Shown: positions 10,326-34,365 of the stretch, in pieces
How the letters are laid out: every line of letters begins with the position of its first letter
How positions within the stretch are numbered: the stretch's first letter is position 1
Source of the DNA: Gracilaria domingensis
Lineage: Eukaryota > Rhodophyta > Florideophyceae > Gracilariales > Gracilariaceae
Direction of reading: 5' to 3'
DNA: 34,843 bases
NCBI GenBank assembly: GCA_022539475.1
Contig: VCMS01000515.1
Location: forward strand, 1-34,843
The notes under the pieces: model-generated
Database searches by the model: none
What the model saw: the letters and a program-made list of their open reading frames with translations, nothing else
Told to the model about the DNA's origin: nothing
Translations under genes and position numbers: made by a program

Positions 10326-11096
10326 CTACTTGCTCAGCAAAACATTAAGGCGATACCCTTGCCAAGATGCATCTTCCGCCTCCCCAAACGAATTCGATCT
10401 AATAAGCTTCAGCTTTCCGTCCGTCCACCGCTCTATTTCTTGTGCATCATCACAAGCCCACCGGAAATAACTCTCCTTTGGCAAATGTTTCATAATCACA
10501 TGCTTACTCTGCGTGTTCATCATGAGTGTGTCTGCGGTATCTGTACAAAACCACACCGGGTGAAAGTTTTCGGCAATCTGTATGATCGCCTTCTTTGCAT
10601 TATCTCCGTCCAAGTAAATCATGGCCGCCTCTGACACGAACAACCACGGCCCGCCAACTTTCTTCACAGCGTCCATCCACTCAGTATCAACAATGCTGCC
10701 AGAAATCATCGTCCTGCGCGCTCCGTCTTCGAAAAACTTGCGTCGCAACGCGATCACATCGGGAAGATCGAGATCAAACCACCGCACAGTACCGTTGTCA
10801 AGTCGCTCAAAGCGCGTGTTAAGCCCGCATCCAATCTCCACGACGGTGCCAGCGGGAAAGCGCTCCAAGAACTGCTTTATGTCTTCGTCCATCATAACCG
10901 TGCGTACCGCGTTGATTCGGATTGTCTTCCTCACGTTTTCCCACTTGGAGAAGTCGTAGTTGAGCGAGTTGACGATCTCTACAGCCTTCGGGTCGCGAAG
11001 CACGCAGTTGGGCTGCTGCGTCTCTTGTGCTCGCGCCATCAACGGCACTTGTAACGTCTCCTGTACGGCGCCGAGCTCGACGGCAATCTTGGTCAT
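10326..11096 (-). CDS. SAM-dependent O-methyltransferase, TcmP/leucine carboxyl methyltransferase family
   Basis: A 256-codon, intron-less frame from ATG (11094-11096) to a stop at 10326. Residues 86-95 (VEIGCGLNTR) are the glycine-rich SAM-binding loop typical of the LCMT/TcmP family, followed by the acidic post-loop segment WFDLDLPDVI at 106-115 and the FVSEAAMIYL segment at 153-162. The N-terminal part (NCVLRDPKAVEIV, 30-42) also fits the family. Such enzymes move a methyl group from SAM to a carboxyl or hydroxyl group. The TcmP branch acts on polyketide-like small molecules, the LCMT1 branch on the PP2A C-terminus. Length and lack of extra domains fit the TcmP-like branch better; the substrate cannot be told. 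No signal peptide, so presumably cytosolic. It is the only intact non-transposon gene here, isolated between AT-rich DNA and retroelements. Horizontal origin is possible but not shown. Confidence 0.85.
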   Translation of the reverse strand: MTKIAVELGAVQETLQVPLMARAQETQQPNCVLRDPKAVEIVNSLNYDFSKWENVRKTIRINAVRTVMMDEDIKQFLERFPAGTVVEIGCGLNTRFERLDNGTVRWFDLDLPDVIALRRKFFEDGARRTMISGSIVDTEWMDAVKKVGGPWLFVSEAAMIYLDGDNAKKAIIQIAENFHPVWFCTDTADTLMMNTQSKHVIMKHLPKESYFRWACDDAQEIERWTDGKLKLIRSNSFGEAEDASWQGYRLNVLLSK

Positions 11097-13172: not shown

Positions 13173-15000
13173 ATGGAGGTATATAAGGAAGTCTCCCAAG
13201 ACGGGTCTGCCGAGAACTGTTCGGAGCCACCAACACCTCCGGTGTCAGTAGCGAACCTCGTCATCTCGAGCCCTCCCGCGATGTCCCAACGCACCGAACG
13301 GCCCTCCGTCCTCGACGGCACGCATGCAAGTATCGAAACCCGCCGTTCCGGTTCTGTTCCTCTCCCGCAGNNNNNNNNNNNNNNNNNNNNNNNNNNNNNN
13401 NACCGGACAAGATCACGCCTCCAGCTCAGGCTGGTCCGCGCCCCGTGTGGGTATTGAGGTTCAACGCCGAGAATGCCAGCTACGCATAGGTGGAGTGGCT
13501 ACCGCAGGCGCGTTTACGCATCGGGATCCCCACACCGGGCACAGTTTCCCCTTTTTGCCGCAGGCCCCTGTTTGACGCCGAAGCCGATTCTGGGATACAG
13601 ATGCGTTTCGTCGACTCGTACGCTGTCCGACGGCTCAACTCCTGGTGGGCTTCCTGCTGGCGTTACCGTATCATGGGACTGGATCGCCCAGCGTTTTGCC
13701 GTTATACAGCAGCGCTGTTTGTAGGTCGAAACGAGACGAGACAATTCCGCTCGCAATGAGATGGCCCGCATTGGGGTACGCGCGACACTTCCGAGCTCCG
13801 AACGAACATCCGGTGCCGGCACAGTACCAGTACGATGTGGCACGTTACCGAACTTTCGGCGAGGTCGGCTACGGCGACCATCTAGCCAACGCGTTGGACG
13901 AAATTGACCGATATTCGGATACCGTTCAGCCGCAGCAGGAGTTGATCCTGTGGGCGCGGCCGATCCTTCGCGCCGAGTTCCGGTTCCTTCGCCGTCCTGG
14001 ACGGTCTCAATTTCATGAAGGCCTCCGCTTCGAGAGGAAATGGCGTTCCCGCTTCGGGGTACTGGTGCCGTACCAGTGCACGGAGGTGGAACGCATTGCG
14101 CGTCACTCCCATACTGGGCGATACCTGCCGCTGCCGTCATTCTGGCCTGCGGTCGAAGTCCCACGAGGGTGTCACGTAGAGCTACCGCCCTGCCTAACTT
14201 ACATAGGCTCGTACTTCATGAACGATCCGCCTCGCGGCCTGTGGAGCATCCTGGCAACAGAATGGACCGTCCGCGTTGCGGCTTTCCTCCTCATCGAGGC
14301 ATATGATTCGTACCGAGTTTGGTTCATCCCGGAACTCATCCGGCAAGCGATCCGAGCGTTGGATCTCTCCGAAGTGCTCGGCTCGGTCCGCAATGCGCGC
14401 GAAGCCACCGCGTTGGTGGACGTCATTGACCAGATTGACTGGAATGAGGTGCCTGCTAGTCAGGTTTCCGACGGAGTCCGCCGGCAGTCGGACCGTTCTC
14501 CCGGACGGAACGTCAACGCCGGCGACTTCGTATACTTTGACCCGTGGATTTGGGAGGTAATTGGCCCCGCTGAGGCGGCTGGTCGCCGCCGAGAGGAGCG
14601 ATATATCCCGGAAGGGCACCCGCGTGGGTTCGTATACGTCGACGATGACGGTGATGACCCTGCAGAGGGAGGAAGTCCCATGGATGAGGGGAGCCCAGTG
14701 GGGGTTGCCTCGGAGCCCGACACTACGGGAGATGACGACGAAGTCGTGATCGTTGACCCACCCGCTGTAGCGGCTCCCGCTCCGACCGGCCCGTGGGCTC
14801 AGGATGTAGCATCCGCCGTGGGCGGCAGTTCTTCTCTCACTCCGCGAGCGGCGGTCATTCGCGACTTCCTTCGAGGCGTGGGAGTGGCCGTTCCCGATAC
14901 GGTGACCGACGAGTCGGAGTTGCAAGCAATAGCGGCACAGCGCTTCTCCGGGGCTCCCGGTAGTGGGGGCACCCCAGGTGCTGGGCCGTCCGGCGCGTAA
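13173..15000 (+). pseudogene. Antisense open reading frame of element 2, disrupted copy
   Basis: This is the counterpart of the intact 599-aa frame at 26510-28309, running against the element's own genes. It starts at the same ATG (13173) and ends at the same stop (15000). From about 13770 to the end it is essentially identical to the intact copy. Between about 13280 and 13770 it carries more than a dozen single-base indels plus a run of 31 N, so the frame is broken; only the C-terminal ~400 codons are cleanly open. The density of errors next to an N run suggests poor sequence quality rather than natural decay. For protein features see the intact copy. Confidence 0.6.
13371..13401. other. Run of 31 N (sequence gap)
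   Basis: The homologous stretch in element 3 is only about 28-29 bp long, so the gap size is close to real. The sequence for several hundred bases on its right is full of indels relative to element 3. Confidence 0.95.
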
Positions 15001-15509: not shown

Positions 15510-16664
15510 TCAACCCACTTGGGCCTTGTCCAGCGTAGCCGGTATCGGTGTCCGTGTGCGACGGTGGTACTGCAAGACCTTCGAGCGAGGCAAGTGCTCA
15601 ATGGGCTCGTGCGTATCCTCTGAAGAGGCGTAGCCGTACCAACGGACTCGATACAGTAGTTCCCCGTCAGGGGCGTAGCCGTGACTTATCAGACGGTCAA
15701 TGACATACTCCTCATCGAGGACCTTCCGCGCAGGATGCGGCTTTGTCGATGTATCCTCTCTCGAGGTGTCGTTGTTACCTCTCCCGTCGTGGGCTTCATT
15801 GGTTACTTTCGGCTTCCGTCCTGACGGCAAGACATCCTGTACGCCAGGCGAGAGCCATTTTGACCATGGTGTTTCCATGTCATTCCGGCTTCCAGAGTTC
15901 TGGCTTTCCTTCCCGTATTGTCGGGCTGTTACCGAGCTTCGGTGTTCTCGAATAGCGAGCTTCCGGCGTTCCGGCAAGATCTCCCGAAGTGAGGGTGAAC
16001 GGTCCGCAATGCGGTGTGCCAGCGAGTGGTGCCGTGGCACGTGCCGAGGCGACGCCTTGCCAAGCATTGCTGGCGGTGGGGCCTGCGCCGTTGCACGGCT
16101 GTGCGTTGCCGATTCAAATTCGGAATTTCCGTTTCCGGCGGCCGCAAGCCTTACAGCGGGCACGTGCCCGGCTCGTGTGTTGTCACCCTCCACTGGAGGC
16201 GGATCGCCGGCGAAGCCAGACACTTGGCGCAGCGTGCGCGCGTGTGCAGCGTTGGGCTGCTGCCCACCTACTGTGGCATGTCGGCCTGCTGTTGCGGCGG
16301 TTGCCTCCGTGTTTTCAACGGCTTCATTACTCGATGCTTCAATAAAATCTCCCGAAATCGGGTCTGCCGTAACAACACGGTCTTTCTGGACAGGCTTCTT
16401 TTCCGGTCTTCCGGCTTCTTTTGACGCGAGTGCGCTGCCGCTGCCGGGCTCCGACTGCGGCGGGCATGTACTTTCCGCATTCGACGTGGCTGCTGCGGTG
16501 GTTACCACCCTCTTTTCCGGCGTACCGGTCTCACGCTGCACAGCTGGGGCAGGCTCTTGTCCTTCCGTCTGTGACGGCCGTACAGTGCTATCCGCGGGCG
16601 AAGCGGCGACTTCTGCAGCAGCTACATCCTGGTGTTCTTCCGGTTCTCCGGCTTCGTGCTCCAC
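15510..16664 (-). CDS. Chromodomain reading frame 3' of pol (element 2)
   Basis: A 384-codon frame overlapping the end of pol in the -1 frame. Residues 1-300 are low-complexity (Ala, Glu, Pro, Thr, Ser). Residues about 319-368 form a chromodomain: EYVIDRLI, then ELLYRVRWYGY, then DTHEPIEHL. Tyr, Trp and Tyr stand where the aromatic cage for methyl-lysine is expected, so binding to methylated histone H3 is plausible, guiding integration to heterochromatin as known for chromoviruses. The frame opens at GTG, and the first ATG is only at residue 200. Upstream the frame stays open to about 16757, some 135 nt inside pol. It is therefore probably made as a Pol extension by -1 frameshifting, or by splicing, though I see no canonical slippery heptamer. 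A fixed frameshift mutation is the alternative. Confidence 0.7.
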   Translation of the reverse strand: MEHEAGEPEEHQDVAAAEVAASPADSTVRPSQTEGQEPAPAVQRETGTPEKRVVTTAAATSNAESTCPPQSEPGSGSALASKEAGRPEKKPVQKDRVVTADPISGDFIEASSNEAVENTEATAATAGRHATVGGQQPNAAHARTLRQVSGFAGDPPPVEGDNTRAGHVPAVRLAAAGNGNSEFESATHSRATAQAPPPAMLGKASPRHVPRHHSLAHRIADRSPSLREILPERRKLAIREHRSSVTARQYGKESQNSGSRNDMETPWSKWLSPGVQDVLPSGRKPKVTNEAHDGRGNNDTSREDTSTKPHPARKVLDEEYVIDRLISHGYAPDGELLYRVRWYGYASSEDTHEPIEHLPRSKVLQYHRRTRTPIPATLDKAQVG

Positions 16665-21028: not shown

Positions 21029-21045
21029 GCTCAGTTTTTCTGAGC
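21029..21045 (-). promoter_or_regulatory. Hairpin at the gag stop codon (gag-pol junction, element 2)
   Basis: The sense strand reads GCTCAG-AAAAA-CTGAGC, a perfect 6-bp stem with an A5 loop that contains the gag TGA (21031-21033). Pol continues in the -1 frame from here in this copy. The run G-AAA-AAC just before the stop is a weak slippery sequence. The same hairpin is kept in element 3 (34338-34354). Confidence 0.6.
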
Positions 21046-23040
21046 GTCGCCGCCAATCTGCGGAGGTTGCGATTCCGCAGGGGCGGCTACAGTTCCACCA
21101 TTCGATGGCACCGTTTCCTGGTTTCCAGGCTGAGTCTCCGCCTTCGCACGAAGGTACGATTTGTCGGGAACACGTTCCCGCTCGGCGGGCGTCAACGACT
21201 CATACTGAGGCACTATCTTCGCCATATCCCGTATGGGCATTAAGCAATTCGGAGCGATGTGCCCTGGCCTGTAACAGGTATGACAAATAAGGTGACGAAG
21301 AAGATCCGCGTTGGGCGGCCGGCGCTCCTGTCGAGGAGGATACGGGTCCCTCCATCCGGGGCGTTGGCTTCGATATCCGCCAGAGTGCGGCACGGGCAAT
21401 GCCGGGACTTGACGTCCGGCGTACAGAGCGGGGTCTCCGTCCACTGTAGACTGCTCCGTCGTCGACGGCAATTCCGAACTCGGCATTGAACCATCGTCCT
21501 GTAACAGGTGCAGGTTATCATAACCCCCTTGAACAGAACCTCGCGAGTGAGGCAGTGAGGAGTCTCGGCCTTCTACATGAAGGAGTCGGCGCGTGCGCGC
21601 CTTGATACCAGTGCGTGCTCGAGCTGCATCTCCCTCCGCTTGGGCAAATTGAACGAGTTCCAGATAGGTAATCCGGCGTTTGTTCTCCCGATAATGGGCT
21701 ACCAACGTCCGAATTGATCGGTCCAGTCCATCAACAAACATCGTACACCGCTCGGCTGCGGAGAACACGTTGCCACATCTGTGGAAAGCCTTATTGAGGC
21801 GGGTCGAATAAACGGTTTCCGACTCTTCGGCTCCTTGCTTCGTGTCTCGTAGCGCGAGTATGGCACCTTGTATCGCATTGCCTGTCGCGTAAGAGCGCAG
21901 GAGATATTGTACCGCTTCCGGCCAGCACGTAACTCCTCCTTCGGAGGCGCGAGACGACCCACGAACCGAATTGAATTGATCTTCGGCTACACCCGTCAAA
22001 AAGTACGGCAGCGCGATGTAGGCCTGTGCCTCACTCATCCGAAGTACATCGGCTTCCGCTACGAAGCGGCTAAGAAAATCCAAGACAAGAATTGGATCTT
22101 CCCCAGAGAACTTGTGGGGCTTTAACGTGAGCTCCATTTGTCGGAGATGATTTCGCACTTTGCCAGTCCCACGTGGGGTCCTCTGTGGCGTCGTGTCATC
22201 AAGCCGATAATATCGGTAAGATAGTAGCTTCCGATACAGTAAGTTTGTCGGCTTCAACTCCTTCAATCCGAGGTGTCTCCGTCCTTTCGTACGGCCTCGT
22301 GCAACGCCAGAAGTGGCTTCAGTAGCCCGCGAACGGGATGCACGATAGCGAGAGCGCTCTTCCGCGCTGTCCGAAGAGTCGGTAGACGACCCCTTTTTGG
22401 GGCCCTCCTCATCAGAAGAGGATGAAGAAGACGAGTCAGACTCAACCTTGACCTTCTTCTTTGCCGGACGATCCCGGGAACGGCGCGAGTGCTGAGAACC
22501 CTCAGAAACCGGGGCTCCCGGCGCAACAGCATCAGATACGATGATTTGCTCGACCGTCTCCAGACGGGTAGCCAGGCGGTCCAGGCGTGCGGCAGCCTGC
22601 TCGTGCAGACCAGCCGACACCTGTCGGTGTTCCATAATCTGGTTGACATCAGACCGTAAAACACGGACGTCGCTCGAAACATCCCGGACACCGGCTTCAT
22701 CGAGCCGTTGCCGGAGTTTCGTAATGTCCCGGATGAGGCCCACTTGGGAGTTCTGCAGGATGCGAACCTGAGCCTCTAATTCACGGAGGGTATACTCGTC
22801 GGACCGCGACGACATAACGTCAACCGCTGCGGCGGCATCAGCCGCAGGTGCGGTTTCAGTTGGCCCACGAGTGGGTGGGGTCCCGTTATCAGAACGGCGG
22901 CCCCGGGAAGCCGGTTTCGGGTCGCCATTGCCTGGGACCTCCAGTGCGTCCTTCGGCAACGGAGGCAAACTTGCCGGCAAGCCGGACGAACCGGGCACAG
23001 AAGCGGCACGTGGCGCGCTACTCCTGCGACGGGACGACAT
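21031..23040 (-). CDS. Gag (element 2)
   Basis: 669 codons from ATG (23038-23040) to TGA (21031). Layout: Ser/Pro/Ala-rich start (1-80); a long heptad-rich coiled coil (about 84-168, ELEAQVRILQ through RLDRLATRLETVEQ); a basic cluster resembling a nuclear localisation signal (PAKKKVKVE, 192-200); a Ser/Asp/Glu tract (201-226); an Arg-rich linker; a retrotransposon capsid-like region (about 304-470, from LTLKPHKFSGEDPI to YLELVQFAQAEGD); and one CCHC zinc knuckle with C586, C589, H594 and C599 (CHTCYRPGHIAPNC). Gag forms the virus-like particle and packages RNA. The coiled coil and possible nuclear signal are more than a minimal Gag has. It lies 164 bp downstream of the 5' LTR, and pol follows in another frame. 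Confidence 0.92.
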   Translation of the reverse strand: MSSRRRSSAPRAASVPGSSGLPASLPPLPKDALEVPGNGDPKPASRGRRSDNGTPPTRGPTETAPAADAAAAVDVMSSRSDEYTLRELEAQVRILQNSQVGLIRDITKLRQRLDEAGVRDVSSDVRVLRSDVNQIMEHRQVSAGLHEQAAARLDRLATRLETVEQIIVSDAVAPGAPVSEGSQHSRRSRDRPAKKKVKVESDSSSSSSSDEEGPKKGSSTDSSDSAEERSRYRASRSRATEATSGVARGRTKGRRHLGLKELKPTNLLYRKLLSYRYYRLDDTTPQRTPRGTGKVRNHLRQMELTLKPHKFSGEDPILVLDFLSRFVAEADVLRMSEAQAYIALPYFLTGVAEDQFNSVRGSSRASEGGVTCWPEAVQYLLRSYATGNAIQGAILALRDTKQGAEESETVYSTRLNKAFHRCGNVFSAAERCTMFVDGLDRSIRTLVAHYRENKRRITYLELVQFAQAEGDAARARTGIKARTRRLLHVEGRDSSLPHSRGSVQGGYDNLHLLQDDGSMPSSELPSTTEQSTVDGDPALYAGRQVPALPVPHSGGYRSQRPGWRDPYPPRQERRPPNADLLRHLICHTCYRPGHIAPNCLMPIRDMAKIVPQYESLTPAERERVPDKSYLRAKAETQPGNQETVPSNGGTVAAPAESQPPQIGGDAQKN

Positions 23041-23204
23041 CGTTCACCGACACAGTCGGCCAATGGGCAACCAAAACAACTTCCGAAAACGGACAATGAG
23101 AGAACCGTAAGAACGGATATTCCCAGCTATCTGGGCTCCAAACAAACGAACCAACTCCAACGAACGTTGGCCAATTAAGCCGATTCTAGGTCGGGAGACC
23201 AGTT
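23041..23204 (-). other. 5' leader of element 2 between LTR and gag
   Basis: 164 bp holding the PBS next to the LTR and no open frame of note. Short inverted repeats occur, for example CCCAG...CTGGG around 23131-23143 and AACGAACGTT-like sequence near 23160. A packaging signal would be expected here. Confidence 0.6.
23181..23201 (-). other. Primer-binding site of element 2
   Basis: The + strand ends in GGTCGGGAGACCA, that is, discriminator A plus CCA after a 7-nt acceptor strand TCGGGAG. Further left it reads CTAGG (T-stem) and CGATT, which matches the end of a TTCGATT T-loop. So 21 nt fit a tRNA 3' end in tRNA geometry. It lies 3 nt from the LTR. I cannot assign the tRNA species. Confidence 0.85.
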
Positions 23205-24062
23205 TGTGGTGCAAAACCCTCGACGGGAAAACAACAAGCCGCGTCGCGGACGAGCACCTCAGGGTGTTCAGGCCCTGCTCCCTGTGAAGGGCAGTCGAGC
23301 GGCAGAACCCTCCGATAGGGCCAACACGAGCCGGGTGTAAATCCGGGTGGCCCCGATCTGGGCGTGCAGTCGGAGGTAGAAGGGGTAGAATCGGCGTAGG
23401 TATCCGGATGGTTCCGGCGAGCCACAGCGAGTGGGGGTATCCAGCCCAACGGTATGGGACGACAAAAGATCAACAAACGAGCCGCACTGCGGAGCACTGA
23501 CTCGCGATAAGCGGGAAAACTCCCGAGACAAAATAAAACAAACCTACAATGTAGGGCAGAGTAGCGAAAGCCGTAAGACGGAAATGACAACAATAAAATA
23601 GATAAGAAAAGTGCCGTGACGACGGATTAGTACTCCTCAGGGACGGAGGTTGGTTGATCAGCCCGGAATTGCGGCGGTATTCCCCAGGATGGGGCTGGTG
23701 ACCGTGCGCAAGCGGCAAGAAGATCAGAGCCAAAGGCCTCGTTGAGGTTTACTTCCCGTACAGTGGCGGCAAGTGCCGCCACTTATATACGGCACTTGAA
23801 AATATCAATTAAAATATCTAACTATCCGGCGCTGCCGGCCAATACACTACAGGTGTGCCCCCGTGGCATGCTTGCCACGGGGCCCGCGCGATCGGGCCAA
23901 CTTGGCACACGTGTGCAGAAATACTACCCTTCCTAGGCATACCCCAAAATAGGGGCACTACCCCAGTAGCCTCTCATAACCTGAGGTGTCGCAGCCGGTA
24001 ACGGATCAACAAACTATGAAAAGCACCTCGGTGCATCCCCACAAAGGGCGTTTTGCTCTACA
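23205..24062 (-). repeat. 5' LTR of element 2 (LTR B)
   Basis: 858 bp, TGTGGTGC...GCTCTACA on the + strand, next to the PBS, hence the 5' LTR that drives the element. Compared with LTR C it has few differences, most of them in a cluster at 23859-23898 where two neighbouring hairpins are lengthened. The palindrome GCACACGTGTGC is at 23905-23916. It interrupts a hAT transposase gene at its right edge. Confidence 0.92.
23763..23789 (-). promoter_or_regulatory. LTR promoter: TATATAA plus adjacent stem-loop
   Basis: On the sense strand TATATAA (23783-23789) is followed directly by GTGGCGGC-ACTT-GCCGCCAC (23763-23782), a perfect 8-bp stem. The same pair is at 12821-12847 and 26157-26184. Transcription would be expected to start about 25-30 nt beyond the TATA box, just past the hairpin. 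Known LTR promoters have a TATA box in U3; the hairpin in this position is unusual. Confidence 0.6.
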
Positions 24063-25599
24063 GATGAGGACGAAATGCGCTTAAGTTTTCCGCAAGGCTC
24101 CTGATATCTAACATGTAGGCAACGTAATGTAGCGGCGTCACCAATGCTACCTTCTGTCCCTCCCCATTCATTCGTCGCTCGAAAACCTTAATTATATCAT
24201 CCCTTCTCTGCGATGTGTAGAAAGGTGTAGTCGGTAGCTGCTTAAGCTTTTCCAATAGTTGCGTCGTGGCGGGGTAAACTTCAGATAGAAGTGAAGACTC
24301 GTCATCAAATATCCTTAAGTACTGGCGAACGAGCCGGAAGATATGATACACATCCAAAAGTTTTTCGTAGAGTGCTTCGTTTCGAACAGTTGCCTTGAAC
24401 AGCTCCCGTTTCTCTCGGTTCCTACCGCTGTACAAACTAGAGTGGAAGTCTTGGCAGTCAATCAGTTCGTTAAGAACTACTTTGCACCTTAAAAAGGATG
24501 CAATCATGCTTTCTGAAGAAGCGAATCGCGTCTGCGCCATTTTAGCCGGAAGAACTGCGGATGGAGGCAGTCGAACGCGTCCATACTGGTCCAATTCGGG
24601 TGACGTCGAGTTCCGAGGAGCTCTCAAATTAAAGCGGGTTTTCAGCTCCTTAAATCTGTGGTATAGTTTAGGATGGTTCCTAAGGTCCGCAATCACAATT
24701 GATACCATCGTAAGGAGCTCACTCACCCACGCCAGCTTTCCAATATCCTGCATCAATAGGCTAGCGAGGTGAGTTTGGTCCTGGCACGAAAACATGAATG
24801 TATGCTTCTGAAGCAAATTCTGCTTAGCTCTAACACAAGAACTGGTGTTGTCGCTAACAACCGCGCCGACTCGTCGCATTTCTCCGAATTCTAATAGAGA
24901 ATCTTCAACAACCTTTGAATAAAAGGCTGCATCGCAGCTGATCGATCCAGTATAAATCGATTTAAGAAAGAACGTCTTTCGAACGCTTTCCATTCCGGTA
25001 AGGGAAAGCAGAACATTAACCACCCCTTCGTTGTTTCCATCAGTCCATCCGTCGAAAATCAAGGTTCCATACGAGTCTTTCAGTGAAGCAGCGATGGATT
25101 GCTTCACTCAATTATGCATCTCTTCGTAGTAAACGCTAATATTCTTGGAACCCATTCGTTTCGGATCGGGCAATTGTTTGCTGAGTTCATAATCCGCGAG
25201 TCTCACTATCTGATAGAACTCATTGAAACCTTCCTTTCGACTCAGCAACGAAAAGGGTAGCATATGCTTCACGAAGAAGCGTGTGACAAGGTCGTTAAAC
25301 TTTGACCGACGATCGCGCGAGATAAGACTCATGTCGCTTCCTGAAAACTCGCTTTTTGAGTTTGAAGAAGCCATAAATGTTTTCTTAACGCAGACCGGAG
25401 CTTTTCGCTTGACACCTCCCCCATTAGATCTCCTCGACGCCACGTTTTGTCTCCGCTTCTTTGATATAATGGGAGTTACCGGGCGTCCAAATAAGTCGGA
25501 ACCACCACTGCCGATATTTTCCCGGTAGTATGTCTTGAGACGATTGTCTTTCAGAAGACGATGACGTACGTCAGAAGAAGTGCCTTTGCACTTCACTGC
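24063..25599 (-). pseudogene. hAT-family transposase fragment, truncated by LTRs on both sides
   Basis: One minus-strand frame with a single in-frame TGA (25108-25110). The upstream part (25599-25111) starts inside what may be the end of a BED-type finger (CKGTSSDVRHRLL) and has a basic linker (KKRRQNVASRR). The downstream part has the hAT/DUF659 core: LIFDGWTDGNNEGVVNVLLS with the first catalytic Asp, VVSDNTSSC with the second, and the C-x-H block (SCQDQTHLASLLMQD). The catalytic Glu and dimerisation region would lie left of 24063 but are removed by LTR B. hAT transposases cut and paste DNA elements with 8-bp target duplications; this piece is dead. The C-terminal half is not found left of element 2. 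Confidence 0.85.
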
Positions 25600-26456
25600 T
25601 GTGGTGCAAAACCCTCGACGGGAAAACAACAAGCCGCGTCGCGGACGAGCACCTCAGGGTGTTCAGGCCCTGCTCCCTGTGAAGGGCAGTCGAGCGGCAG
25701 AACCCTCCGATAGGGCCAACACGAGCCGGGTGTAAATCCGGGTGGCCCCGATCTGGGCGTGCAGTCGGAGGTAGAAGGGGTAGAATCGGCGTAGGTATCC
25801 GGATGGTTCCGGCGAGCCACAGCGAGTGGGGGTATCCAGCCCAACGGTATGGGACGACAAAAGATCAACAAACGAGCCGCACTGCGGAGCACTGACTCGC
25901 GATAAGCGGGAAAACTCCCGAGACAAATAAAACAAACCTACAATGTAGGGCAGAGTAGCGAAAGCCGTAAGACGGAAATGACAACAATAAAATAGATAAG
26001 AAAAGTGCCGTGACGACGGATTAGTACTCCTCAGGGACGGAGGTTGGTTGATCAGCCCGGAATTGCGGCGGTATTCCCCAGGATGGGGCTGGTGACCGTG
26101 CGCAAGCGGCAAGAAGATCAGAGCCAAAGGCCTCGTTGAGGTTTACTTCCCGTACAGTGGCGGCAAGTGCCGCCACTTATATACGGCACTTGAAAATATC
26201 AATTAAAATATCTAACTGTCCGGCGCTGCCGGCCAATACATTACAGGTGTGCAACCGTGGCAGGCTTGCCACGGCGCACCCGCTATCGGGCCAACTTGGC
26301 ACACGTGTGCAGAAATACTACCCTTCCTAGGCATACCCCAAAATAGGGGCACTACCCCAGTAGCCTCTCATAACCTGAGGTGTCGAAGCCGGTAACGGAT
26401 CAACAAACTATGAAAAGCACCTCGGTGCATCCCCACAAAGGGCGTTTTGCTCTACA
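25600..26456 (-). repeat. 3' LTR of element 3 (LTR C)
   Basis: 857 bp, same termini as LTRs A and B. It carries TATATAA on the minus strand (26178-26184), the adjacent stem-loop (26157-26176), the palindrome GCACACGTGTGC (26299-26310), hairpin CCGTGGCA-4-TGCCACGG (26255-26274), CCCC-5-GGGG hairpins at 26076-26088 and 26336-26348, and the hairpin 25670-25689 shared with the solo LTR. The left flank is hAT sequence ending ACTGC. Confidence 0.92.
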
Positions 26457-26457
26457 T

Positions 26458-26471
26458 CTCCCCCTTCTCAG
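26458..26471 (-). other. Polypurine tract of element 3
   Basis: Sense strand CTGAGAAGGGGGAG, directly before the LTR start TGTAGAGC (with GA at the border). Primer for second-strand cDNA synthesis. Confidence 0.88.
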
Positions 26472-26509: not shown

Positions 26510-28309
26510 ATGGAGGTATATAAGGAAGTCTCCCAAGACGGGTCTGCCGAGAACTGTTCGGAGCCACCAACACCTCCGGTGTCAGTAGCGAACCTCGTCA
26601 TCTCGAGCCCTCCCGCGATGTCCAACGCACCGAACGGTCCTCCGTCCTCGACGGCACGCATGCAAGTATCGAACCCGCCGTTCCGGTCTGTTCCTCTCCC
26701 GCAGTCGGCGGCTGCCTCCCAGCCGGGTTCTTCCGGACAAGATCACGCTCCAGCTCAGGCTGGTCCCGCGCCCGTGTGGGATTGGTTCAACGCCGAGATG
26801 CCAGCTACGCTGGGTGGATGGCCTACCGCAGGCGCGTTACGCATCCGGGATCCCCACCGGCACAGTTTCCTTTTTGCCCAGGCTCCCTGGTTTGACGCCG
26901 AAGCCGTTCGGGATACAGAGCTCGTCGACTCGTACGCTGTCGACGGTCAACTCCCTGGTGGGCTTCCTGCTGACGTTACCCGTTCATGGGACTGGATCGC
27001 CCGCGTTGCGGTTATACCGAGCTGCCTGTTTGTAGGTCGAAACGAGACGAGACAATTCGCTCGCAATGAGATGGCTCGCATTGGGTACGCGCGACACTTC
27101 CGAGCTCCGAACGAACATCCGGTGCCGGCACAGTACCAGTACGATGTGGCACGTTACCGAACTTTCGGCGAGGTCGGCTACGGCGACCATCTAGCCAACG
27201 CGTTGGACGAAATTGACCGATATTCGGATACCGTTCAGCCGCAGCAGGAGTTGATCCTGTGGGCGCGGCCGATCCTTCGCGCCGAGTTCCGGTTCCTTCG
27301 CCGTCCTGGACGGTCTCAATTTCATGAAGGCCTCCGCTTCGAGAGGAAATGGCGTTCCCGCTTCGGGGTACTGGTGCCGTACCAGTGCACGGAGGTGGAA
27401 CGCATTGCGCGTCACTCCCATACTGGGCGATACCTGCCGCTGCCGTCATTCTGGCCTGCGGTCGAAGTCCCACGAGGGTGTCACGTAGAGCTACCGCCCT
27501 GCCTAACTTACATAGGCTCGTACTTCATGAACGATCCGCCTCGCGGCCTGTGGAGCATCCTGGCAACAGAATGGACCGTCCGCGTTGCGGCTTTCCTCCT
27601 CATCGAGGCATATGATTCGTACCGAGTTTGGTTCATCCCGGAACTCATCCGGCAAGCGATCCGAGCGTTGGATCTCTCCGAAGTGCTCGGCTCGGTCCGC
27701 AATGCGCGCGAAGCCACCGCGTTGGTGGACGTCATTGACCAGATTGACTGGAATGAGGTGCCTGCTAGTCAGGTTTCCGACGGAGTCCGCCGGCAGTCGG
27801 ACCGTTCTCCCGGACGGAACGTCAACGCCGGCGACTTCGTATACTTTGACCCGTGGATTTGGGAGGTAATTGGCCCCGCTGAGGCGGCTGGTCGCCGCCG
27901 AGAGGAGCGATATATCCCGGAAGGGCACCCGCGTGGGTTCGTATACGTCGACGATGACGGTGATGACCCTGCAGAGGGAGGAAGTCCCATGGATGAGGGG
28001 AGCCCAGTGGGGGTTGCCTCGGAGCCCGACACTACGGGAGATGACGACGAAGTCGTGATCGTTGACCCACCCGCTGTAGCGGCTCCCGCTCCGACCGGCC
28101 CGTGGGCTCAGGATGTAGCATCCGCCGTGGGCGGCAGTTCTTCTCTCACTCCGCGAGCGGCGGTCATTCGCGACTTCCTTCGAGGCGTGGGAGTGGCCGT
28201 TCCCGATACGGTGACCGACGAGTCGGAGTTGCAAGCAATAGCGGCACAGCGCTTCTCCGGGGCTCCCGGTAGTGGGGGCACCCCAGGTGCTGGGCCGTCC
28301 GGCGCGTAA
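26510..28309 (+). CDS. Antisense ORF between pol/chromodomain and 3' LTR, 599 aa, unknown function
   Basis: An intact frame from ATG (26510) to TAA, running opposite to gag-pol and starting 54 bp from the LTR edge. I recognise no family. Residues 1-95 are Pro/Ser/Ala-rich. Residues about 88-460 look globular, with many Trp and Arg (VWDWFNAEMP 88-97, SWDWIAR 159-165, FRFLRRPGRSQFHEGLRF 260-277, FDPWIWEVIG 446-455) and two helix-like segments (356-420). Residues 480-520 are acidic and include DDDEVVIVD (511-519), which fits a SUMO-interacting motif. The end is Gly/Ser/Ala-rich. No signal peptide or membrane segment is clear. A TATA-like TATATAAGG lies at 26517-26525, on top of the first codons; if it is used, translation would start at Met37 (26618). 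The copy in element 2 has the same frame but is damaged near an N run. Antisense ORFs in this position are known from some plant gypsy lineages, mostly of unknown function. It might instead be a captured host gene. Confidence 0.6.
   Translation: MEVYKEVSQDGSAENCSEPPTPPVSVANLVISSPPAMSNAPNGPPSSTARMQVSNPPFRSVPLPQSAAASQPGSSGQDHAPAQAGPAPVWDWFNAEMPATLGGWPTAGALRIRDPHRHSFLFAQAPWFDAEAVRDTELVDSYAVDGQLPGGLPADVTRSWDWIARVAVIPSCLFVGRNETRQFARNEMARIGYARHFRAPNEHPVPAQYQYDVARYRTFGEVGYGDHLANALDEIDRYSDTVQPQQELILWARPILRAEFRFLRRPGRSQFHEGLRFERKWRSRFGVLVPYQCTEVERIARHSHTGRYLPLPSFWPAVEVPRGCHVELPPCLTYIGSYFMNDPPRGLWSILATEWTVRVAAFLLIEAYDSYRVWFIPELIRQAIRALDLSEVLGSVRNAREATALVDVIDQIDWNEVPASQVSDGVRRQSDRSPGRNVNAGDFVYFDPWIWEVIGPAEAAGRRREERYIPEGHPRGFVYVDDDGDDPAEGGSPMDEGSPVGVASEPDTTGDDDEVVIVDPPAVAAPAPTGPWAQDVASAVGGSSSLTPRAAVIRDFLRGVGVAVPDTVTDESELQAIAAQRFSGAPGSGGTPGAGPSGA
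26517..26525 (+). promoter_or_regulatory. TATA-like box for antisense transcription
   Basis: TATATAAGG on the + strand, overlapping codons 3-6 of the longest antisense frame (same at 13180-13188). It could place a transcript start near 26550 and make Met37 the true start. Short AT-rich words also arise by chance, so this is tentative. Confidence 0.4.
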
Positions 28310-28819: not shown

Positions 28820-29974
28820 TCAACCCACTTGGGCCTTGTCCAGCGTAGCCGGTATCGGTGTCCGTGTGCGACGGTGGTACTGCAAGACCTTCGAGCGAGG
28901 CAAGTGCTCAATGGGCTCGTGCGTATCCTCTGAAGAGGCGTAGCCGTACCAACGGACTCGATACAGTAGTTCCCCGTCAGGGGCGTAGCCGTGACTTATC
29001 AGACGGTCAATGACATACTTCTCATCGAGGACCTTCCGCGCAAGATGCGGCTTTGTCGATGTATCCTCTCTCGAGGTGTCGTTGTTACTTCTCCCGTCGT
29101 GGGCTTCATCGGTTACTTTCGGCTTCCGTCCTGACGGCAAGACACCCTGTACGCCAGGCGAGAGCCATTTTGACCATGGTGTTTTCCTGTCATTCATGCT
29201 TCCAGAGTTCTGGCTTTCCTTCCCGTATTGTCGGGCTGTTACCGAGCTTCGGTGTTCTCGAATAGCGAGCTTCCGGCGTTCCGGCAAGATCTCCCGAAGT
29301 GAGGGTGAACGGTCCGCAATGCGGTGTGCCAGCGAGTGGTGCCGTGGCACGTGCCGAGGCGACGCCTTGCCAAGCATTGCTGGCGGTGGGGCCTGCGCCG
29401 TTGCACGGCTGTGCGTTGCCGATTCAAATTCGGAATTTCCGTTTCCGGCGGCCGCAAGCCTTACAGCGGGCACGTGCCCGGCTCGTGTGTTGTCACCCTC
29501 CACTGGAGGCGGATCGCCGGCGAAGCCAGACACTTGGCGCAGCGTGCGCGCGTGTGCAGCGTTGGGCTGCTGCCCACCTACTGTGGCATGTCGGCCTGCT
29601 GTTGCGGCGGTTGCCTCCGTGTTTTCAACGGCTTCATTACTCGATGCTTCAATAAAATCTCCCGAAATCGGGTCTGCCGTAACAACACGGTCTTTCTGGA
29701 CAGGCTTCTTTTCCGGTCTTCCGGCTTCTTTTGACGCGAGTGCGCTGCCGCTGCCGGGCTCCGACTGCGGCGGGCATGTACTTTCCGCATTCGACGTGGC
29801 TGCTGCGGTGGTTACCACCCTCTTTTCCGGCGTACCGGTCTCACGCTGCACAGCTGGGGCAGGCTCTTGTCCTTCCGTCTGTGACGGCCGTACAGTGCTA
29901 TCCGCGGGCGAAGCGGCGACTTCTGCAGCAGCTACATCCTGGTGTTCTTCCGGTTCTCCGGCTTCGTGCTCCAC
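28820..29974 (-). CDS. Chromodomain reading frame 3' of pol (element 3)
   Basis: 384 codons counted from a GTG, open further upstream to about 30067 within pol, in the -1 frame relative to pol. It is identical to the element 2 copy except for eight residues, all between about 259 and 319, just before and at the first strand of the chromodomain (for example RNDMET versus MNDRKT, DEEYV versus DEKYV). The chromodomain proper (about 319-368) keeps the cage-like Tyr, Trp and Tyr (YVIDRLI, RVRWYGY). Ala/Pro/Thr/Glu-rich N-terminal part without ATG before residue 200, so most likely expressed as an extension of Pol. Confidence 0.7.
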   Translation of the reverse strand: MEHEAGEPEEHQDVAAAEVAASPADSTVRPSQTEGQEPAPAVQRETGTPEKRVVTTAAATSNAESTCPPQSEPGSGSALASKEAGRPEKKPVQKDRVVTADPISGDFIEASSNEAVENTEATAATAGRHATVGGQQPNAAHARTLRQVSGFAGDPPPVEGDNTRAGHVPAVRLAAAGNGNSEFESATHSRATAQAPPPAMLGKASPRHVPRHHSLAHRIADRSPSLREILPERRKLAIREHRSSVTARQYGKESQNSGSMNDRKTPWSKWLSPGVQGVLPSGRKPKVTDEAHDGRSNNDTSREDTSTKPHLARKVLDEKYVIDRLISHGYAPDGELLYRVRWYGYASSEDTHEPIEHLPRSKVLQYHRRTRTPIPATLDKAQVG

Positions 29975-32900
29975 CGAAGTGGTGCGTTCCTCTTTAGGCT
30001 TCCGCGATAACTGCGCGTTTTCGCCTCTTTCCGAATCTTCGGCTGTACGTCGCGCGTCCGCGTGCTTTCACCACGACTTGCGTGCGGCCCGGAGGCCTGC
30101 AAAGGCACTTCCGTCGACGACGGCGACAACGAAATCGAGCGACTTACCTCCTCCTCCCCCTTCTCAGTTGGAGCGTCGGGGGTGGTGGTGAGTATCCCCT
30201 GAGGGGCCAGTATCCGCGTGTGGACATGTGCGGCGTTCGAGACTGGCGGGTTAGCTTCCGGCTTTGCCGGCAAATCAGCAAGTCCGCGGCTAGGATGCGG
30301 CAGGACTGACAACGAAGCGCGCTCTCCCGCTGTCGCGGCTTGGTCCACAGTAGGCGTAGCGCTGTCCGGCGTTTCCGGTTGCTTTTCCTGACGAACAGGC
30401 TGTGGCGCAGGCGTTACGCGATCGCGCGAAAAACGCTCGTGTTCACCCTCAATATCGAGGACAACCGTTGTATCGGTGATAGAAATAACCCTGTAGGGGC
30501 CGTCCGCGATAGGAGAGAGCTTATGCCTCTTCTCCTTTTCCGGGTTATAGTATTCCTTCCGTAGGAAGGCGTAGTTACCTTCCCTGATCTGAGGGGCATC
30601 CCTGCGCATTCGTGCGTCGAAATTCCGCTTGTACGCGGCTTGTGCCTTATCGATGTTTTGCCTAACTGTAGGAATGATGTTCTTAAGCCAGGCCTTCCAG
30701 GCGTCCCTGTGTAGACGAGGCGAGGGGAACTTATCCAAAGTTGGCTGTGGCTCGATAGCCACCGAAGGTGGAACGCGTGATAGCACAAGCTCGAACGGCG
30801 AGATCTGAGTAGTGCGATGAACCTGCGTATTGTAGGCATATGTCACCGCATCGGTGTATTGATCCCACTCCGACGGATGTTCGGCAACGAATGTCCGTAA
30901 TGCATTGAGCATTGTGCGGTTAAAACGTTCAACCTGCCCATTACTCTGGGGGTGGTATGTTGTCGTAAACCAGTTTTGGATCCGCAAGATGCGGCAAACG
31001 TCCTGAAAGAACTTAGCCGTAAACTGCGGTCCATTGTCCGATAACAGGTCAATCGGCGGTCCGTAGACAAAAACCCAGTGTGTAACGAAAGCTTGGGCGA
31101 CCGCACTGGCGGTAACCTTCGTCAAAGGCACAGTCCGTACCAGTTTAGAAAAACGGTCGGTGATCACAAGTAGAAACCGGTTTCCCCGGCGAGTGCGGAT
31201 AAACTCGCCGAGCAAGTCAATTGCCACGAATTCAAGTGGAGCCCTGGCAGGGAAGAGTACCAACTTCTTGGAGTACTTCCGCAGCTTGACGCGGTTCTTC
31301 GCGCAGTCAGAACATCCACGAACAGTGGCATACGCGTCGAAAGCCATTGCTGGCCAGTAAAAGTCCTTCCGTAAGGTGTAGTACAACTTCCTGCCACCAG
31401 GGTGGGCTGACAACTTCGCGTAGTGCGACAAATGCAGTACTCGTGACTGAAGTGAGTGCGGAACCACAATCTGTGGCCTGTTTCCGACGGTTCGGATTAG
31501 AAATCCTTGGTCGTTCTCGACGAAAGGCAACTGTGCTCCACCGTTTAGGCGACTACGAATCTCCGTACAAAAACGGTCGGTGTGCTGCTCCCGGATGAGT
31601 TCCTCCGGCTTGATCGGTACGAAAGAGCCCGGTTCGGGTTGCGTGTCAGACACGGCTAAAACAGCATCGTAGATGTCCCATCCTTCCGATTCTTCATCGG
31701 CATCGCTCGAGCCGTCTTCCACGAGGAAGCACGGTATCTCCAGATCATCGACTGGCGCAGCTTCAGCCGCTGTTTCCAAGCGGGACAGTGCATCAGCCTG
31801 AGTGTTCAGGAGTCCTTTCTTGTAACGGATTTCGAAGTCGAATTCCGACAAGCGAAGTCTCCACCGCATCAAGCGGCCAGATGGCTCTGCTATAGAGAGT
31901 AGCCAGCGTAATGCCGAATGATCGGTATGGACAATGAAGCGGGTCCCCATAAGATAGGGCCGCAGTGTTTGTAACGCCCAGACAACTGCCAAGCACTCCT
32001 TCTCGGATACCGAGTAATTCCTCTCGTGAACGTTGAGGCTCCTTGACCAATACCCAATTGGCAATCGCTCGCCATCATTGGTGGTCTGGAATAGGGCACA
32101 GCCGACTTGGTAGTCGCTCGCATCCGTATCTACTGCATATGGCAAACCAGCCCTAGGCAGGGATAAAACAGGTGGCGATGTCACCGCGTCCACGAGCGAC
32201 GAGAAAGCCGCGACCTTGCGGTTGTCGAATTCTTCCAGATCGACTGGCTGGCCTTTGCGAAGAAGCTCGTTCAGAGGTGCAGCGATATCCGCAAAGTTCG
32301 GAATGAAGCGGCGATACACATTGCACAAGCCGAGAAAAGATCGGAGTTCCGTCTGCGTCCTCGGATGCTTAGCCTCTTTGAGGGATTTCACGCGTACTTC
32401 GTCAATCGAAAGCCGTCCCGGACGGATAACATGGCCGAGATACCTGACGGTTTCGGTAAAGAACTCACACTTCTTGAGCTTGAGCGTAATGCCTGCATCG
32501 CGTAGGACTCGCATCACATCCCGTACGTGGGTCAAGTGCTCATCCAGGTTGCTGGAGTAGACAATGATGTCATCCAGGTATACCAGGCAAGTCTTCCACT
32601 TAAAGCGGGCTAGCAAAATATCCACAGCTCGTTGAAAAGTGGCTGGCGCGTTCGTTAACCCAAAGGGCATCCGATTGAATCGGTACAATCCTTCATGACA
32701 AACGAAGGCTGTCTTGTCACGATCCTCAGCCCTCACGGGAACTTGCCAATAGCCCCAATTCGCGTCTAGGGTTGTGAACACTTTCGCGTCGCCCAATGAA
32801 TCGATGCATTCATCCATTCGTGGGATAGGATACACATCCTTGACCGTAGCCGCGTTTAGCTTGCGGTAATCGATGCAAAATCGCCAAGACCCATCAGCTT

Positions 32901-34365
32901 TGGGCGCGAGCACCACCGGCGATGCCCAAGGTGACTGAGCCGGCTCGATAACTCCAGCGCGGAGCATCTTCTCAACTTGAGCTTTCTCCTCCTGCCGAGC
33001 TGTCGGTCCTGCCCTGTAAGGGTGCTGTGAAATGGGCCGAGTATTCGGTAGCAAATCAATCCGATGTTCGGTAATACCAATCTTACCCAGTGTGCCATCC
33101 CACATGGGCGTGAACTCCTCAAGCATGTGCCGCAATTTATCGCGGTGAGTCTCTGGGACATGTTCAAGATCCAGAGACTCCAGTTCCTGTACTGCCTTAT
33201 CCTTCGTGTCAGCAGCACTCAGGTCCGTATCATTACTGTCCGACGAGGTCGGCATTGCCTCCTTCGACAGGCTGCGGTTATTTGCATCCGACGAAGTCGG
33301 CGTAGCATCTTCCGACGAACTGTTCGGTCCAGTCGTTTCGGAATTGTTCCGTTCCGCCTCCCCCTCCTCAGCTTCGAGGATTCCGAGAACCTCGGCAATA
33401 GAAACCTGAGTAGGCACTATAGCCGCAGGGTGCGGAAGCAACGAACCAATAACTTGGCTCCTAACCAACCGTTGAGAAAAACGGCTGAAGTTCGCAACCA
33501 GCACCTGAAAAGGCTTCTCGGGTTCGACGAAAACAATCCCATTAGCGAGGGCAAGCTGATGCTTCTCCTGTAACGCAGGCAACGGTTGTACCGTTTGTAA
33601 GCCACATTGTGGGGAGGTCACAGTAACCCAGACCTGTGATTCAGGCGGGATGGAAATGGGCCGAGCTACTCGGAGCTTTGTAGACTTCCGTTCATCGGCT
33701 GTAGGCTTCTGTGCCGCAGGCAAAGGGACTTGCTTCTTCAGAGCCCGGCGCAAGGGACGCCGAACGATCGGTACAGTAGTCCCATCTTCCATTTCGATGG
33801 TTCGCTTCCGCGGTCGAATTGCATCGACGAAGCGGTCACAGAAGTCGCAGCCGAGGATAACCGGCGCAGCGAGTTGCTTGCAAACCAAGAAATCGAGCTT
33901 CGCCACGTAGCGGCCAAGCCTGACGAGCAGGTCTATTACTCCCACAGTCGAAAGTGGCCGATTGTTCGCATCCGCTATATCGATCTGCGGCGCCGCACGA
34001 ACGCGAGACCGCAAGTGCGGCGGAATCATTGATTCAACCAAGAAATTTGGCCCAGCTCCTGTATCGAGCACGGACAACTGCCGAACCATGTACTGGTCGG
34101 AAACACCCAGGTCGGCGTAAACTTTGTAGTTACGTTTCGCCATGACCAGGACTCTATCCGGGAACCGGCTGTTCTTAGACCGTATCCACGGGCGACGCAA
34201 GACACCAAGGTGCTCAGAGTCCACGTCTGTAGTGGCCAGTTTCCTCGAAAGGATTGTGACCGGGGAGCGAGGCTTCTCAGCCTCAGGCGCACTAAACCCC
34301 GTCGCTGGGGGCGCCTCTCCATTGCTGGAGGCTCCTTGCTCAGTTTTTCTGAGCGTCGCCGCCAA
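29932..34365 (-). CDS. Ty3/gypsy Pol: protease, RT, RNase H, integrase (element 3)
   Basis: 1477 codons from a TTG that lies inside the end of gag; the first ATG is codon 75, so this is a frameshift product rather than a separately started protein. Domains: protease DTGA at 101-104 and ILGCDFC near 170; RT with YLDD at 596-599; RNase H DTDAS at 746-750; integrase HHCC finger with CSDC at 1018-1021; catalytic D1050, D1110 and E1146; GPY at 1289-1291; Pro/Ser/Glu-rich tail from about 1320. All active-site residues are present. In this copy pol sits in the +1 frame relative to gag, whereas in element 2 it is -1, because of one base (GCAAGGAGCC here, GCAAGGGAGCC there). The nearby gag end is error-prone here, so the element 2 reading is perhaps more reliable. 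Confidence 0.93.
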   Translation of the reverse strand: MAATLRKTEQGASSNGEAPPATGFSAPEAEKPRSPVTILSRKLATTDVDSEHLGVLRRPWIRSKNSRFPDRVLVMAKRNYKVYADLGVSDQYMVRQLSVLDTGAGPNFLVESMIPPHLRSRVRAAPQIDIADANNRPLSTVGVIDLLVRLGRYVAKLDFLVCKQLAAPVILGCDFCDRFVDAIRPRKRTIEMEDGTTVPIVRRPLRRALKKQVPLPAAQKPTADERKSTKLRVARPISIPPESQVWVTVTSPQCGLQTVQPLPALQEKHQLALANGIVFVEPEKPFQVLVANFSRFSQRLVRSQVIGSLLPHPAAIVPTQVSIAEVLGILEAEEGEAERNNSETTGPNSSSEDATPTSSDANNRSLSKEAMPTSSDSNDTDLSAADTKDKAVQELESLDLEHVPETHRDKLRHMLEEFTPMWDGTLGKIGITEHRIDLLPNTRPISQHPYRAGPTARQEEKAQVEKMLRAGVIEPAQSPWASPVVLAPKADGSWRFCIDYRKLNAATVKDVYPIPRMDECIDSLGDAKVFTTLDANWGYWQVPVRAEDRDKTAFVCHEGLYRFNRMPFGLTNAPATFQRAVDILLARFKWKTCLVYLDDIIVYSSNLDEHLTHVRDVMRVLRDAGITLKLKKCEFFTETVRYLGHVIRPGRLSIDEVRVKSLKEAKHPRTQTELRSFLGLCNVYRRFIPNFADIAAPLNELLRKGQPVDLEEFDNRKVAAFSSLVDAVTSPPVLSLPRAGLPYAVDTDASDYQVGCALFQTTNDGERLPIGYWSRSLNVHERNYSVSEKECLAVVWALQTLRPYLMGTRFIVHTDHSALRWLLSIAEPSGRLMRWRLRLSEFDFEIRYKKGLLNTQADALSRLETAAEAAPVDDLEIPCFLVEDGSSDADEESEGWDIYDAVLAVSDTQPEPGSFVPIKPEELIREQHTDRFCTEIRSRLNGGAQLPFVENDQGFLIRTVGNRPQIVVPHSLQSRVLHLSHYAKLSAHPGGRKLYYTLRKDFYWPAMAFDAYATVRGCSDCAKNRVKLRKYSKKLVLFPARAPLEFVAIDLLGEFIRTRRGNRFLLVITDRFSKLVRTVPLTKVTASAVAQAFVTHWVFVYGPPIDLLSDNGPQFTAKFFQDVCRILRIQNWFTTTYHPQSNGQVERFNRTMLNALRTFVAEHPSEWDQYTDAVTYAYNTQVHRTTQISPFELVLSRVPPSVAIEPQPTLDKFPSPRLHRDAWKAWLKNIIPTVRQNIDKAQAAYKRNFDARMRRDAPQIREGNYAFLRKEYYNPEKEKRHKLSPIADGPYRVISITDTTVVLDIEGEHERFSRDRVTPAPQPVRQEKQPETPDSATPTVDQAATAGERASLSVLPHPSRGLADLPAKPEANPPVSNAAHVHTRILAPQGILTTTPDAPTEKGEEEVSRSISLSPSSTEVPLQASGPHASRGESTRTRDVQPKIRKEAKTRSYRGSLKRNAPLRWSTKPENRKNTRM
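30154..30167 (-). other. Internal PPT-like motif, copy B (element 3)
   Basis: Sense CTGAGAAGGGGGAG inside the tail of pol, as at 16844-16857 in element 2. Confidence 0.5.
34338..34354 (-). promoter_or_regulatory. Hairpin at the gag stop codon (element 3)
   Basis: Same GCTCAG-AAAAA-CTGAGC stem-loop with the gag TGA (34340-34342) as in element 2. Confidence 0.6.

Follow-up and report, generated by a model that had tools for sequence, protein, structure and literature searches.

Does a long open reading frame that lies antisense to the gag-pol genes of a retrotransposon encode a protein of the element, and if so, what might this protein do? We addressed this question in the genome of the red alga Gracilaria domingensis (77.9 Mb, 680 contigs), starting from a stretch of 34,843 nucleotides, hereafter the window, which carries two Ty3/gypsy elements. 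Element 2 bears the intact antisense frame. The original prediction had described one unbroken frame from ATG to TAA opposite to gag-pol, which fills the interval between the 3' LTR and the chromodomain frame and has a middle part rich in tryptophan and arginine. This description was borne out in all three respects: the frame comprises 599 codons on the plus strand, with pol and the chromodomain on the minus strand; 510 nt separate the two convergent stops; and residues 103-480 contain 13 tryptophans, 45 arginines and a single lysine. The coordinates of the features are compiled in Table 1.

Table 1. Features of the antisense gene and its host element in the window.
Feature	Position	Strand	Remarks
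Broken antisense-frame copy, element 1	13173..15000	+	start placed by repeat spacing
3' LTR, element 2	25600..26456	-	TGT...ACA ends
Polypurine tract adjoining the 3' LTR	26457..26470	-	read on the minus strand
Antisense frame, F1 family	26510..28309	+	first ATG to TAA, 599 aa
TATA-like box TATATAAG, F1	26517..26524	+	60 nt inside the LTR edge; candidate promoter
Likelier protein from second in-frame ATG (M37)	26618..28309	+	563 aa; putative start
Conserved folded core	26813..27949	+	379 aa; confident AlphaFold2 model
Chromodomain frame	28820..29974	-	384 aa, element sense strand, convergent with the antisense gene; PF00385, E 1.4e-7
pol	29932..34365	-	RT, RNase H and integrase in that order; domain matches

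The host element has a chromodomain after integrase, but in an overlapping frame of its own. By this domain order and the presence of the chromodomain, it belongs to a chromodomain-bearing, chromovirus-like Ty3/gypsy lineage. Chromodomains are usually fused to integrase; here, possibly, a programmed frameshift takes place or the chromodomain is made as a separate product. The overlap with the end of pol, in another reading frame, measures 43 nt in each of the two elements (29932-29974 and 16622-16664, minus strand). A polypurine tract similar to that of element 2 lies at the same place in the loci of the related families F2 and F3 that we examined.

The window holds several further features. 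Element 1 has a gag frame (21031-23040) with a CCHC-like motif that falls under the Pfam cut-off, and a candidate primer binding site, TGGTCTCCCGACC, at 23189-23201 (minus strand), three bases inside the edge of its 5' LTR; the five bases that flank this element on either side are not the matching pair of a target duplication. A hAT-transposase-like sequence (24063-25599, minus strand; DUF659, E 2.3e-17), consisting of two adjoining frames, 25108-25632 and 24058-25107, split by a stop, separates the 5' LTR of element 1 from the 3' LTR of element 2. A leucine carboxyl methyltransferase-like frame at 10326-11096 (minus strand; PF04072, E 2.7e-10) represents a host-like gene, and a related gypsy pol remnant with RT and RNase H is found at 686-2047 (minus strand).

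The length of the antisense frame is not attributable to chance, since in 300 sequences of 2365 nt drawn from a first-order Markov model, open runs extended to 366 codons at most, whichever frame was read, and never to 599. The copy in element 1 is broken and retains a 451-codon GTG frame at 13645-15000. In order to assess constraint at the protein level, we calculated dN/dS between copies according to Nei-Gojobori and determined significance by permuting the changes (2000 permutations). Values between F1 and three copies of the subfamily F1b were 0.20, 0.24 and 0.26, and those between subfamilies of F2 (0.20, 0.27 and 0.18) and of F3 (0.29, one pair) were similarly low, compared to 0.61, 0.96 and 0.70 within F1b. 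Four between-subfamily pairs showed 50, 45, 102 and 63 synonymous changes versus 24.0, 21.6, 51.1 and 27.8 expected, and as many were found in none of the 2000 permutations. The 17 synonymous changes of the F3 pair (10.7 expected) were reached by 26 of 2000 permutations, and the observed values of two within-F1b pairs by 194 and 1182 of 2000. The low ratios between subfamilies and the higher ones within F1b suggest that the frame is constrained while the elements replicate and free to change after insertion. Comparisons across families are at or near saturation at synonymous sites.

We also calculated dN/dS for individual parts of the protein. The core showed 0.11-0.22 in F1 and F2; its value in F3, 0.40, is based on 11 changes. 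The linker ahead of the core gave 0.02-0.31. For the C-terminal tail, three pairs lay at 0.23-0.35, the F3 pair at 0.15, and one further pair at 1.40 on the basis of 5 changes. As a benchmark, the chromodomain accumulated 14 synonymous and no nonsynonymous changes in 74 codons in two F2 pairs, while a third pair gave 0.51 from 6 changes. The original prediction had read the frame as that of a real accessory protein and had proposed dN/dS of diverged family members as a check. The value is about 0.2 and not 1, and among the best 73 of 1352 candidates, for which in-frame stops were counted and frameshifts left out, 52 same-family copies are free of stops and 21 have one or more. We regard it as nearly certain that the 599-codon frame is a real protein-coding accessory gene of the element.

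Searches with distant relatives revealed four diverged families, F2 to F5, in the same genome as F1. Antisense frames occur in at least 79 places in F1, 46 in F2 (two of these belonging to F5), 71 in F3 and 43 in F4, as assigned by hand among the listed places, of which only the best candidates were scored. A chromodomain on the opposite strand, convergent with the antisense frame and located 3' of it, was found in all 30 F1 loci examined, in 28 of 30 F2 loci (none in L049 and L050) and in both F3 loci. LTR sequence adjoins the frame in all 30 F1 loci fetched, two of them as partial matches, and in the single elements sampled from F2 and F3, the distance to pol is as expected. The antisense placement is thus common to F1, F2 and F3, the three families for which surroundings were examined; F4 and F5 are represented by the sequence of the frame. 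The antisense proteins of F2 and F3 are 41-42% identical to that of F1, whereas pol is 63-71% identical between families, and therefore the antisense gene is more diverged than pol. Chromodomain identity amounts to 43-58%, depending on the stretch.

The closest named homologue among the roughly 8,000 candidates scored is a hypothetical protein of Gracilariopsis chorda, with 66% identity over the full length, and further kin come from Agarophyton chilense (protein searches, about 8,000 candidates scored in each); the nearest homologues with a name thus belong to the Gracilariales. In the core alignment, relatives are 32-47% identical to the antisense protein, and P0001 from Gracilariopsis 75%. 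In the tree, F1 groups with P0001 (100/100), F4 with P0002 (100/100) and F3 with P0007 (97/96). Families of the G. domingensis genome are thus mixed with other sources, which makes the families look older than their hosts. We additionally searched with the pol remnant and scored 93 RT relatives of 61-100% identity. Among the matches listed, in none of the 93 cases did an antisense relative occupy the expected position and strand, and seven had a listed antisense gene within 12 kb, elsewhere than at the expected place. Gypsy elements in general therefore perhaps do not need the antisense gene.

These data bear on two readings in which the frame would not be a gene of the element proper. An open frame without coding function, arising as a by-product of base composition or of constraint on the sense strand, would agree with codon-usage correlation, which did not single out the antisense frame among the frames, and with the low dN/dS (0.27-0.41) of one frame on the opposite strand, a value to be expected when third positions face each other. 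However, that frame holds 14-30 stops, within the 8-32 stops found in each of the five other reading frames. Moreover, dN/dS of the antisense frame lies well below 1, its relatives align over the core at the protein level, and the fold model is confident, so that we give this reading practically no weight. The original prediction had further considered a captured host gene, with which the lack of any relative in Pfam, NCBIfam or PDB sequences would be compatible. This alternative found no support: among the approximately 8,000 candidates scored per protein search, whose records come without genomic context, none was recognized as a homologue from outside such elements, and any capture must be old given that families of 41-42% identity occupy the same antisense place and that the tree mixes sources. 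We consider a captured gene very improbable.

How might the gene be expressed? TATA-like boxes were compared in five loci of three families. The box of F1 (Table 1) has counterparts in F2, TATTTAAG, 62 nt inside the LTR edge, and in F3, where the box TAAATACG at 63 nt is weaker. Transcripts from TATA promoters start 25-30 nt downstream of the box. Such a start would miss the first ATG in F1, F2 and F3 and lead to use of the second; judging from the sequence, translation may thus begin at 26618 and not at 26510. An "M-x-P-N"-like stretch accompanies the second ATG in all three families and is also found where P0004, P0007, P0009 and P0013 begin. In contrast, P0001 is annotated as starting at the position that corresponds to the first ATG of F1, and the stretch ahead of the second ATG has a dN/dS of 0.36 in two F2 pairs with 11 changes each (1, 4, 11, 11 and 2 changes in the five pairs), two observations that speak against the second start, the latter on the basis of few changes.

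The N-terminus of the protein, rich in Pro and Ser, is followed by a folded core of 380 residues with abundant Arg and Trp, then by an acidic tail and a C-terminal stretch. Two short segments recur between families, a "PLPQ" motif in the N-terminal part and a portion at the C-terminus. The HMM search and the structure prediction proposed originally gave no Pfam family at E <= 1 and a confident model of the core (22 sequences; pLDDT 87.9, pTM 0.89), for which no structural match was found in the PDB or among viral models. A full-length AlphaFold2 model from 11 sequences was unusable (pLDDT 39.7). Pfam searches with 11 aligned members returned one weak match in one of them (E3_binding, E 0.029), which is unrelated. 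Among PDB sequences, no profile hit was significant (best E 5.9 and 0.31), and PHROGs gave weak matches at most (best E 0.093). By sequence, the antisense product is a protein family absent from the domain libraries searched. The theoretical pI of the core, 6.6 in F1 and 8.3-9.5 in F2 to F5, varies such that nucleic-acid binding is not obvious.

Several specific identities were rejected. The TRP28 domain of Retand (PF04195) and the plant mobile domain, which we take to be PF10536, did not appear in the Pfam searches. An Env-like product would be encoded in sense orientation and have a transmembrane segment, which is at odds with the antisense orientation and with hydropathy, as the highest 19-residue Kyte-Doolittle mean, 1.52, belongs to a helix predicted within the core. 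Viral contigs, when scanned, yielded 25 pattern matches, none of which is a relative.

A striking property of the family is its depletion of lysine. The antisense frames contain 2 lysines in 599 residues in F1, none in 670 and 681 in F2, and 9 in 617 in F3 (8 in the other F3 copy), and the partial frames of F4 and F5 contain 2 in 497 and none in 475, in comparison with 71 of 1477 residues in pol (4.8%) and 24 of 669 in gag (3.6%). Where the frame spans 560 codons or more, 28 F1 copies have 2-3 lysines and 26 F2 copies 0-2; the three F1b copies have 2-4. AAY asparagine codons are not depleted, and AAR is found when the sequence is read in the +1 frame or on the complementary strand, so that base composition does not fully explain the deficit. 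In-frame AAR was as low in 0 of 1000 three-periodic Markov sequences for F2, 2 for F5, 21 for F1, 35 for F4 and 183 for F3; the deficit is accordingly clear for F2 and F5, less so for F1 and F4, and not significant for F3. Twelve of the thirteen P proteins contain 0.2-1.7% lysine, the exception being P0008 with 35 in 668 residues. P0008, with 33 member sequences, has a lysine-rich C-terminal tail.

In the available portions of two reports (PMC10169902; PMC10665810), lysine deserts are linked with limited ubiquitination, and proteins with such deserts include some viral proteins, toxins and ubiquitin-ligase receptors. The antisense proteins share the long lysine-free stretches but differ in that whole frames of 670-681 residues, folded core included, lack lysine, and the link to ubiquitin is putative here. 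The near lack of lysine could protect the antisense protein from ubiquitination and degradation.

With regard to function, we propose that a promoter next to the 3' LTR, on the internal side of its edge, likely drives antisense transcription without dependence on the sense promoter of the 5' LTR, and that a single protein would be translated from the one uninterrupted frame. This protein would act in trans in the nucleus and keep the element productive, by countering silencing or by aiding LTR transcription or the pre-integration complex. We give this explanation as a whole, an accessory gene with its own antisense promoter and a trans-acting nuclear product, an even chance. The role as a nuclear regulator, which draws on analogy with the antisense accessory genes of plant elements (Grande) and of retroviruses, is a tentative assignment to which we give somewhat less than even weight. 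A bolder variant, which we regard as a long shot, is that a lysine-purged protein of new fold, expressed from its own antisense promoter, works beside the host ubiquitin machinery, for example as a ligase substrate receptor that would remove a host silencing factor while itself being immune to degradation. We know of no such protein from an LTR retrotransposon.

Instead of a regulator, the gene might supply an accessory factor of particles or integration, such as a capsid-associated protein or a component of the pre-integration complex. Its maintenance beside pol in several families would fit, as would a divergence exceeding that of pol, as is often seen for partner-binding proteins, and the motifs common to families at both ends of the protein. 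However, element 1 already has a gag of its own, antisense expression would uncouple the amount of protein from that of gag-pol, and the core matched no fold in the PDB or among viral models, capsids included; we therefore deem this role unlikely, if worth serious consideration. Even less probable in our view is that the antisense product restrains its own element and so limits copy number, either by dominant inhibition or by way of dsRNA formed with the sense transcript. Sense and antisense genes converge such that their transcripts could overlap, and control based on dsRNA is discussed in the accessible part of PMC7264820, but a role of the RNA alone would leave the constraint at the amino-acid level and the foldable protein unexplained.

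The original prediction had likened the frame to the extra ORFs of Tat/Ogre elements. This comparison stands as an analogy, but the present element has a chromodomain, the protein is without Pfam match, and the host is a red alga. HBZ is a bZIP protein, VANDAL elements are DNA transposons, and Pfam revealed no sequence relation of the antisense protein to HTLV-1 HBZ or HIV-1 ASP. According to the available text of PMC7264820, antisense ORFs between pol and the 3' LTR (aORF-3R) include gene23 of maize Grande, rice RIRE2 and ORF4 of Silene Retand, and in Grande, gene23 is preceded by a promoter and its product is nuclear. The red-algal frame resembles them in place and orientation, in its presence in most copies, in its age within the lineage and in a function that is likewise unassigned; it differs in that the aORF-3R described there are from angiosperms, whereas here a chromodomain element of a red alga encodes a protein with no Pfam match and near-zero lysine (PMC7264820). 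Retand represents a non-chromovirus lineage, in which antisense ORFs mostly carry TRP28 (PF04195), as stated in the accessible part of PMC11963269. Like HBZ and ASP, the protein would be encoded antisense and expressed from the side of the 3' LTR, but these are retroviral and have promoters within the 3' LTR (excerpts of PMC10186651). VANC of Arabidopsis VANDAL elements is an element-encoded protein that counters silencing of its own element, as proposed here, in the part of PMC10398659 at hand.

In the titles and abstract openings searched, mostly outside subscription literature, no description of an antisense ORF in red-algal elements was found. While the arrangement of an antisense accessory ORF was already known from plant retrotransposons, the antisense protein family in a red-algal chromodomain lineage is new. 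The role of antisense accessory genes of retrotransposons is an open question, as formulated in the available text of PMC7264820, and our results extend the phenomenon to this lineage. If its fold is really new, the antisense product adds a protein family beyond the domain libraries searched. Overall, purifying selection, co-existing families, the core model and the scarcity of lysine make the role of such a gene unusually testable, and expression, localisation, stability and partners can be addressed on one folded domain.
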